Origin: Lachnospiraceae bacterium
GTDB taxonomy: Bacteria > Bacillota > Clostridia > Lachnospirales > Lachnospiraceae
Assembly: GCA_017427775.1 (NCBI GenBank)
Contig: JAFRSD010000002.1
Coordinates: 62,001-126,000 of the forward strand
Length of the DNA stretch: 64,000 nucleotides
Direction of reading: 5' to 3'
Positions 50,479 through 53,345 of this stretch are shown here, piece by piece. Each line of letters begins with the position of its first letter. Position 1 is the first letter of the stretch. The position numbers and the translations under genes are program-made. The notes below the pieces were generated by a model. It saw only the letters and a program-made list of their open reading frames with translations, did not search any database and was not told the origin of the DNA.

Positions 50479-52389
50479 TTACTGGATTCCAAGTTCTTTC
50501 CACATAACATCGAAGGTGCAGGGACCGATATTCAGGATCGCGGTCTTCGCCTCCATGTCGGTGTACCCCTTTGCCTTCAGTTTATCCATTGTATCTAACA
50601 TCAGATGACGGCCCATCGTATACGGAAGGTAAACGACCGGATCCGCCAGGATCTCCTCATAGAAACCCTCTGCAACCGTTTCGTAACCGTAAGGTCTCAT
50701 GAACGCCTTAACATCATCAACGGTCCAGCCGGCATAATGAACGCCGAGCGTCGTAACGGATACCAGATCCATCGAGATATTGTAATCCACCGTCGAAATA
50801 TATGCGATATCCGGATCGGGAATAATATACTTGTAAGCTTCCTGTCCGGCAATAACAGCCCAGCCTTCCATGTATCCGGTATAGCTGAAAAGCATGTTGA
50901 GCGGATGCCATCCCTCGCAGTTCGCGAAGAATTCGTTCTGATACAGGTGTCCGGGGTATCCTTCATGCGCCAGCGTGCTGAAGAAACTCGCAAGGTCATC
51001 CTTATCAACCGAACTCGGATTGTAGCGGATGACTTTTCTTGCCTGATTATCAAACTGCGGCGTCAGGAAGTATGCAAGCACGCCGGGAATCTGTAATGCT
51101 TCCGGAAGCGCCGAAACGATATAGTCGGTATCCGGGATCGCGGGATAATTCGTCTTGATATACTCTTTCAGGGAATCGAGCATCTGTCTCGGGTCGGTAA
51201 CGGTATAGCCCTGATAAGGATACTTGTAAATGATCGAAATATCCTTGCTGACAACCTCCACCATCTCGTTATAGTCCTGCTCGAACTTTTTCTGCATATA
51301 CTGCAGCTGCTCATAACCGTTCATGGAAGTTCCGACGGTTTCCTGGACAAGGTATTCAAAGTATTCCTTTCCGCCATCCAGAGCACACATTCCGAACAGT
51401 TCCTTGGAAACGTTTCCGCGCATGCCTTCGGCAACCGCCTTAAGATTATTCAGTGCGGGAAATACAACGCTGTTCAGTTTCTCCTGATACTGCGCGATAT
51501 ACGCCTGCTGTGCGCTATCGCTCACTCCCGTCTGCTTGATGTTCTCGGCAAATGCCTCGACTAACGGGTTATGCTCCTTCGCCGTGAGGCCGTCCACATT
51601 TTCCGAAAGCGTATCGATCATCTTCTTGGTCAGAAGGCAGCCATCCGAAAGATATGCCTTCTTCGCCGCTTCGCCTACCTGGTCAAGGTAAGCCGGAAAC
51701 GTGTCAAGTGCCGTGAAGAAATCCTGAATATCCTGCTCGTTATAGAAAGCATACTCGGAAATGATCGTGGAAAGATCATCCACAATATCGCCGTTGACGC
51801 AGAACAGTCCGCAATAGGTGGAAGGATTCAGATTCTCCGCCCGCAAAGCGGCATTGAATTCATGATCCAGACGGTCATAGTTAACCTTCTGTGCGGCAGT
51901 AAGTTCCTCATACTTAAACTCCTTGAGGCGGGCAAGAAACGTGCGGCACTTCTCGCCGTATTCCTGCGTCTGGGCCTCGGCATCCTCTGCCGAACCGAAG
52001 TCCAGCTGCCTCTTCATTCCGTACTGTTCGGGATTCTCGAAGTAAAAATGCAGGCTGATGCCGGAACCGTCGCTGACCATCGCGGCAATCTCGTACAAAA
52101 AGTCATCAAACCGCTTCTGCTCTTCGTTGTAGGTTACTTTTCCGAAATTGGGCGTCGACCAAGGCTTGCCGTTCGGGGTCGGAGCATTGGTGATCACCGG
52201 AGTCGGCGTGACGGTCGGCGTAACGGTTACCGTCGGAGTCACATCCGGCGTTGCGGTTACGGTAACGGTATTCTTCTCTCTCTGCGATCCCTTTTCGGGA
52301 ACCTTCCTGTCTCCGCACGAACCGAGTACGGTCACGCAGAGGATCAATGCAAGAACAAGCGCAATCTTATTCTTTAACAGTTTTCTCAT
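50479..52389 (-). CDS. DUF885-family lipoprotein, putative metallopeptidase
   Basis: 636 residues. Lipobox VLGSC, then a Thr/Pro linker (ATPDVTPTVTVTPTVTPTP) to about residue 75. The DUF885 body carries HEGYPGH (His475-His481), an HExxxxH-type zinc site, followed by GYMEGWAVIAGQE near 505, the third ligand region in this family. Activity on carboxy- or dipeptides is inferred from relatives; the natural substrate is unknown. It is anchored outside the membrane. It heads an operon whose next genes act on DNA, with no obvious functional link. It has a 200-base structured leader. Confidence 0.88.
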   Translation of the reverse strand: MRKLLKNKIALVLALILCVTVLGSCGDRKVPEKGSQREKNTVTVTATPDVTPTVTVTPTVTPTPVITNAPTPNGKPWSTPNFGKVTYNEEQKRFDDFLYEIAAMVSDGSGISLHFYFENPEQYGMKRQLDFGSAEDAEAQTQEYGEKCRTFLARLKEFKYEELTAAQKVNYDRLDHEFNAALRAENLNPSTYCGLFCVNGDIVDDLSTIISEYAFYNEQDIQDFFTALDTFPAYLDQVGEAAKKAYLSDGCLLTKKMIDTLSENVDGLTAKEHNPLVEAFAENIKQTGVSDSAQQAYIAQYQEKLNSVVFPALNNLKAVAEGMRGNVSKELFGMCALDGGKEYFEYLVQETVGTSMNGYEQLQYMQKKFEQDYNEMVEVVSKDISIIYKYPYQGYTVTDPRQMLDSLKEYIKTNYPAIPDTDYIVSALPEALQIPGVLAYFLTPQFDNQARKVIRYNPSSVDKDDLASFFSTLAHEGYPGHLYQNEFFANCEGWHPLNMLFSYTGYMEGWAVIAGQEAYKYIIPDPDIAYISTVDYNISMDLVSVTTLGVHYAGWTVDDVKAFMRPYGYETVAEGFYEEILADPVVYLPYTMGRHLMLDTMDKLKAKGYTDMEAKTAILNIGPCTFDVMWKELGIQ

Positions 52390-52394
52390 CTTTC

Positions 52395-52597
52395 ATTCCT
52401 TACGCAGGCATGGGACACAACGGCATGCGCCTGTAACATGTCGCCGAAAGCCTCTGTCGGGCTTTAACCTACCGTTCATCGGAAACGGACTTTTCGTCTC
52501 TGCACGCGGGCTGTGCGTGCCTGCCGTGTTCCCCCATGAACCGGCATGCCGTCCGGACAGTCCATCCTCTCTTTGCTGCGCTGATTCCTTTCCGATA
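52395..52597 (-). ncRNA. Structured 5' leader of the DUF885 operon
   Basis: The predicted transcript from 52597 to the DUF885 start folds as a closed multi-branch structure by eye. Pairings seen (plus coordinates): 52402-52407 with 52576-52581; 52419-52428 with 52544-52553 (10 bp); 52472-52479 with 52536-52544; 52481-52488 with 52524-52532; hairpins 52502-52507/52515-52520 and 52447-52452/52460-52465. No known riboswitch core was recognised. It contains no convincing reading frame. Could be a riboswitch-like regulator, a processed small RNA, or a repeat unit. Confidence 0.45.
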
Positions 52598-52602
52598 GTG
52601 AC

Positions 52603-52631
52603 AGTATACTCTTAAAGCATCGATAAAGCAA
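52603..52631 (-). promoter_or_regulatory. Promoter of the DUF885-polymerase-YolD operon
   Basis: On the minus strand, TTGCTT (52631-52626), 17 bases, TATACT (52608-52603). It implies an untranslated leader of about 205 bases. Confidence 0.6.
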
Positions 52632-52692: not shown

Positions 52693-52721
52693 TTGCATTT
52701 TCCTTTCAAATCAGATACAAT
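52693..52721 (+). promoter_or_regulatory. Promoter of the XRE regulator
   Basis: TTGCAT (52693-52698), 17 bases, TACAAT (52716-52721). Leader of about 105 bases. A 7-base inverted repeat, TGTAAAC (52681-52687) and GTTTACA (52742-52748), flanks the promoter and could be an autoregulatory site. Confidence 0.6.
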
Positions 52722-52832
52722 AACAGTGACAAGTAAAATCAGTTTACAGAAACCTGCGTATACGGCCGGGCTGACCGCAGCCTTTGGCTTTGTTTGTTTT
52801 TCATAGGAATCAGAATCGTAAGGAGGAGTTAT

Positions 52833-53345
52833 ATGGATCGAGCAGAATTAGGAAAGATCATTAAAGATGCGCGTCTTGCAAAGAAGATGACTCAGAGCGA
52901 AGTTGTAGGAAACTTCATTACCCGTAACATGTTAAGCCAGATTGAGAGCGGCGTTGCCGTTCCGTCCATAAAAACGCTGGAGTATCTCTCCAAGAAACTG
53001 GATATCTCCATTCAGATGCTGAGTGCCGGCCAGAATGCGGAAAGCCGTTCCGTTATTCCCACCGATTATGAGATCATCCGGAACGCCAAGGCCCGCTTCC
53101 GCAGCGGCAAATACGAAGAGGCAGCCCGCATCATCAAGCCCTGTCTTTCGGAATCCAACGAGTTTTTCGATGAGGCATGCGCCATCTACACGATGAGCAC
53201 GCTTGCATGCGCCGGAAAGGCCGAACTTGATAAGGAAACCGCCTGCAATTACGCAAGAGAAGCACTCCTCTATTCCGAAAAAGGCTTCTACGCCTGCCGC
53301 GAGTGGAAAGTGGAAGCGATCTGCCTGATCGAGAAACTCAGCTGA
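52833..53345 (+). CDS. XRE-family transcriptional regulator with TPR-like tail
   Basis: 170 residues from the ATG at 52833, which follows a perfect AAGGAGGAG; an ATG 13 codons upstream has no such site. The helix-turn-helix lies at about 8-62 (MTQSEVVGNFITRNMLSQIE as scanning and recognition helices; VPSIKTLEYLSKKLDI). The rest (80-170) is helical with TPR-like pattern (ARFRSGKYEEAARIIKPCL), as in regulators that sense peptides or proteins (Rgg/PlcR-like layout, but shorter). It is the only complete plus-strand gene in the window and is divergent from the DUF885 operon, a possible target. Ligand unknown. Confidence 0.85.
   Translation: MDRAELGKIIKDARLAKKMTQSEVVGNFITRNMLSQIESGVAVPSIKTLEYLSKKLDISIQMLSAGQNAESRSVIPTDYEIIRNAKARFRSGKYEEAARIIKPCLSESNEFFDEACAIYTMSTLACAGKAELDKETACNYAREALLYSEKGFYACREWKVEAICLIEKLS

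Follow-up and report, generated by a model that had tools for sequence, protein, structure and literature searches.

Autoregulatory leaders of ribosomal proteins, such as those of E. coli S15/rpsO and the S4/alpha operon, contain a pseudoknot beside the start site and have a limited phylogenetic range. The 5' leader of the DUF885 gene described here is similar to them in having a candidate pseudoknot near the start site, at a single locus and with a limited phylogenetic range, but the gene encodes a lipoprotein, with no known RNA-binding product. Pseudoknotted translational leaders have also been described in the preQ1 riboswitch family (PMC11625349) and in the standby pseudoknot of tisB mRNA (PMC7708055). 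The DUF885 leader resembles these leaders in combining a compact hairpin with a downstream pairing in the 5' leader and in the predicted sequestration of its ribosome-binding site, while it differs from them in that it has no Rfam match and that its candidate pseudoknot stem lacks covariation support.

Organization of the locus

The leader was examined within the window, the 64-kb stretch of DNA analysed here, where it lies in the intergenic region common to the DUF885 gene and a divergent XRE-type regulator (Table 1). An earlier note on this DNA had described a good promoter, followed by a non-coding stretch of about 200 nt with many helices, and had named it a candidate new regulatory RNA. 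Its promoter and non-coding leader were borne out on the minus strand, and the transcription start site of the DUF885 mRNA is expected near 52595-52597. Two ordinary explanations that the note had considered, a known RNA family and a dispersed repeat, did not apply. The search against Rfam 15 gave no family at or above the gathering score in the window, and the best local match (E 3.6) was far below threshold and not convincing. The leader is present as a single copy in its own genome, and is thus not a dispersed repeat.

Table 1. Features of the DUF885 locus (window coordinates)
Feature	Position	Strand	Basis or remark
DUF885 lipoprotein gene, downstream of leader	50479..52389	-	Pfam PF05960, E 3.3e-52; ATG at 52389
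5' untranslated leader, ~206 nt, non-coding	52390..52595	-	leaders of similar length and sequence found in G010 and G020 alone
Shine-Dalgarno AAGGA, 7 nt upstream of ATG	52397..52401	-	sequence
GCCUG, 3' strand of candidate stem S2 or of alternative hairpin P3	52405..52409	-	CCUG invariant
UCCCA, between P2 and S2 3' strand, possible anti-Shine-Dalgarno	52411..52415	-	invariant; alignment A2, columns 59-63
P2 hairpin, 52446-52436 with 52428-52418, 11 pairs, loop UACAGGC	52418..52446	-	compensatory changes, column shuffles, 7.7-kb scan
CAGGC in P2 loop, 5' strand of candidate pseudoknot stem S2	52429..52433	-	invariant; alignments A1/A2
P1 hairpin, AAAGCC 52465-52460 with GGCUUU 52452-52447	52447..52465	-	pairs 6/6 in source species, 6/6 in G010, 4/6 in G020 (this register)
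DUF885 promoter, TTGCTT 52626-52631, 17-nt spacer, TATACT 52603-52608	52603..52631	-	sequence
XRE-type regulator gene, divergent, next upstream of DUF885	52833-53345		

The proposed multi-helix fold of the whole leader was not supported, as the stability of the sequence was no better than chance. Its minimum free energy was -68.5 kcal/mol (z -0.80), and 36 of 200 dinucleotide shuffles were equally or more stable; the opposite strand gave a z of -2.0. The note had offered covariation in two helices as a test, and both of them break in the homologous leaders. The helix 52419-52428/52544-52553 pairs at 10/10 positions in its own sequence but only at 5/10 and 6/10 in the two homologues, and 52472-52479/52536-52544, with 8/8 pairs and a one-base bulge in its own sequence, keeps 3/8 in each. 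These breaks led us to reject the two helices as the functional fold. Since the leader is GC-rich and contains GGCATGCC-like palindromes twice, such complementarities within one sequence prove little. The hairpin described below, P2, is a different helix that shares its 3' strand (52418-52428) with the 10-bp 'closing helix' proposed before. Caution is called for here, because the helices that stood out most in one GC-rich sequence did not include the one that is conserved.

Long leaders in one clade

A DUF885 orthologue was found in 21 of the 22 genomes of the genus, and a TTG-N17-TAtanT promoter stands upstream of 19 of the 20 same-genus orthologues whose upstream region was readable. Long leaders are found in three species only, the source species (~206 nt), G010 (215 nt), and G020 (222 nt), and the other 16 orthologues have leaders of 23-112 nt that do not contain the element. 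The long leader is therefore a trait of one clade. The DUF885 proteins of the three species are 58-63% identical, and the long-leader sequences can be aligned across them.

Two similarities outside the conserved element were also observed. A 20-nt block, GAGAGGATGGACTGTCCGGA (52552-52571, minus strand), is identical in the leaders of the source species and G010 (L063 leader) and missing from that of G020. About 45 nt of the leader (52480-52529) match the region between grpE and dnaK in three genomes of the genus (L004, L005, and L006, near 1501-1545), on its complementary strand, at 78-80% identity and a best E of 2e-4; this similarity is probably due to chance.

A hairpin conserved by paired changes

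When the three leaders were analysed by RNAalifold with no structure supplied, P1 and P2 were obtained at the 3' end. Over the last 93 columns, at the 3' end, the alignment fold had a z of -4.3, which none of 500 column shuffles reached. For the 5' part of the leader (5' half/5' two-thirds), the z was -1.2 with 55 of 500 shuffles, indicating no conserved structure there, and a helix predicted there between A1 columns 62-73 and 108-119 was rejected because it is broken in G020. P1 shows one-sided change only. P2 forms 10/11 pairs in the source species and 11/11 in both G010 and G020 (32 of 33 cells); the source copy contains an A-C mismatch, and the minimum free energy structure of that leader is a different fold. 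Compensatory changes were observed at three pairs of P2 (G-U/A-U/G-C, (A-C)/A-U/G-C, and U-A/C-G/C-G), so that the leader has, in three sequences only, the kind of helix that characterizes a structured cis-regulatory 5' leader. Thus, the earlier candidate for a regulatory RNA stands in part: a conserved helix is present that shows compensatory changes and belongs to no known family, but the element is not a 200-nt fold. It comprises ~65 nt at the 3' end, is limited to a single gene in three sister species, and leaves the 5' two-thirds of the leader without conserved structure.

Among the helices of the aligned leaders P2 ranked first, and its score of 13.07 was reached by 0 of 200 column shuffles (the closest was 12.8). 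As this first score rewarded invariant pairs, we instead scanned a 7.7-kb syntenic alignment of the three species for double changes, using both strands of the real DNA and stems of 10-11 bp with at most one unpaired cell. Only P2 showed more than one double change (three, and 0 or 1 in the others). In a further control, in which letters were dealt at random, 82 of 500 shuffles did as well as the real sequences. We consider the conservation of P2 to be well supported and quite probable, although short of proven, because three sequences give the letter-dealing shuffle little power and some coding windows of high conservation equalled it in the invariant-pair score. It might be argued that an unconstrained long leader simply has three related copies, and both the unremarkable stability of the source fold and the restriction to three species would agree with this. 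However, the identity of the P2-S2 stretch is 74-79% in every species pair, above the 44-49% of third codon positions in the gene, with the remainder of the leader falling to 46% between the source species and G020, and P2 is unique in the 7.7 kb; we regard chance as a highly unlikely explanation.

The conserved letters could also belong to a DNA operator, an inverted repeat recognized by a regulator, given that the intergenic region is shared with the XRE-type regulator and contains operator-like GTAAA-N5-TTTAC sites. P2 lies ~160 bp downstream of the promoter, however, and its A-U/G-C/G-U changes alter the letters of an operator yet preserve pairing in RNA. In addition, G-U pairs are invariant or recurrent (A2 columns 27/55, 34/49, and 37/46), which points to RNA and not to a DNA palindrome, and among the readings considered here we give the operator the least credence. 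A conserved leader peptide was rejected as well, since the 3' element carries one-base indels and the ATG-started frame whose product begins with MDCPDG is present only in the source species and G010.

Candidate pseudoknot and occlusion of the Shine-Dalgarno sequence

The CAGGC in the loop of P2 is complementary to the GCCUG located 9-13 nt downstream of the hairpin, and these two strands may possibly form an H-type pseudoknot. The resulting stem, S2, would have 5/6, 5/6, and 6/6 pairs in the three sequences, with four pairs invariant; in two of the sequences one end of the stem is mismatched, and no covariation or compensatory change was found in S2 across the three leaders. The segments of the candidate pseudoknot are a stem of 11 bp, a loop of 2 nt, a stem of 5-6 bp, and a loop of 8 nt, lengths that we take to be sterically reasonable for an H-type pseudoknot. 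They are similar to those of the minimal pseudoknot of the IBV type, which presumably makes the fold plausible; unlike in that case, no reading frame passes through the DUF885 element, so it is not a frameshift signal.

The G's of the Shine-Dalgarno sequence were predicted to be unpaired with probabilities of only 0.07 (source species), 0.03 (G010), and 0.02 (G020), and in all three species the prediction has this sequence occluded by the UCCCA/CCUG tract, which is invariant. For comparison, the median over 39 genes of the window was 0.48, with 18% of them below 0.1, i.e. predicted to be equally occluded, and the occluding helices are predicted to be just 3-4 bp long. Because the Shine-Dalgarno sequence is predicted to pair with UCCCA/CCUG and S2 would free it from CCUG, we tentatively suggest a lineage-specific, cis-acting translational control element in the DUF885 leader, a proposal to which we assign somewhat less than an even chance. 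P2, which lies a short way upstream of the ribosome-binding site and which paired changes have preserved in three species, would present its CAGGC loop to the downstream GCCUG; the pseudoknot so formed would draw CCUG away from the Shine-Dalgarno sequence, and if S2 were absent the UCCCA/CCUG tract would cover it, so that the competing pairings would set how frequently ribosomes start. We infer every step past P2, the pseudoknot and the switch included. A stronger version, in which a bistable leader (P2 and S2 versus occlusion of the Shine-Dalgarno sequence or P3) switches DUF885 translation on a specific signal in one clade, and would therefore be a new and very narrow regulatory RNA, appears improbable.

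The two strands of S2 can also form a nested hairpin, P3 (CAGGC..RUG with CAY..GCCUG), which displaces the top of P2. It pairs at 8/8, 7/8, and 8/8 positions, and one pair is A-U, G-U, and G-C across the species. That P2 and P3 share bases and are both preserved would suit a small-molecule riboswitch, or an autoregulatory leader that binds a protein, in which P2/S2 and P3 are the two states. As a second state, however, P3 is ~3-14 kcal/mol weaker than P2 and no better than its own shuffles (356 of 500 were as good), and the lack of an Rfam match and of any further copy in the genome searches described below, unlike the case of riboswitch classes, also speaks against this explanation, which we judge very improbable.

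Distribution and turnover of leader structures

A covariance model of the element, R1, found only the three DUF885 leaders among 22 genomes of the genus and 397 of the family, the latter scanned with a prefilter and stricter filters that diverged copies could escape. The next-best matches scored 20-25 bits, equal to the chance level over that many genomes, and the four that were inspected (in G384, G220, G015, and G006) fall within coding sequence or antisense to it, so that a wider family of the element was rejected. An aptamer recurring at several genes or genomes was thus not found in these genomes, and the element is not a widespread riboswitch class. We suggest instead that it is probably a real structured translational leader of an ordinary kind, not in Rfam and narrowly distributed, with an unproven mechanism.

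In another subclade of the genus (L071, L075, L076, L077, L079, and L080), the DUF885 leaders contain a different covarying hairpin directly before the Shine-Dalgarno sequence (CGGGAAAGG), whose alignment fold had a z of -4.2 (0 of 300 shuffles). This unrelated hairpin suggests that leader structures are gained and lost at this place and the promoter stays. The idea that all DUF885 leaders are unusually structured was not borne out: 18 related leaders had a mean z of -1.3, compared with -0.8 (sd 1.3) for the 80-nt stretches upstream of 47 ORFs of the window. A non-homologous hairpin abutting the Shine-Dalgarno sequence, as if any hairpin sufficed, is also what would be expected if P2 were a plain stem of the 5'-UTR, serving stability or as a ribosome-standby platform, with no pseudoknot or switching and with the CAGG/CCUG match coincidental or of other use. 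That convincing covariation is confined to P2 agrees with this as well, whereas neither the loop CAGGC nor the downstream CCUG varies among the three species, and an idle loop would be expected to drift; we regard the plain stem as unlikely, although its weight is appreciable. If the translational control is real, the DUF885 gene acquired a structured translational leader within a single genus and its promoter did not move; with the unrelated hairpin at the same position in another subclade, the turnover of 5'-UTR structures could then be tested directly.

The divergent XRE-type regulator

The regulator gene has its own promoter (TTGCAT 52693-52698, 17 nt, TACAAT 52716-52721), and downstream of it the 5' leader contains a terminator-like hairpin with a U-rich tail (52764-52801, plus strand). 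The hairpin has the same shape in G010 and G020 with changed stem letters, and it is possibly a transcription attenuator. Just past the promoter, an operator-like palindrome, GTAAA-N5-TTTAC (52733-52747), is kept in most of the orthologous regions examined and is probably an autoregulatory site of the XRE-type regulator.
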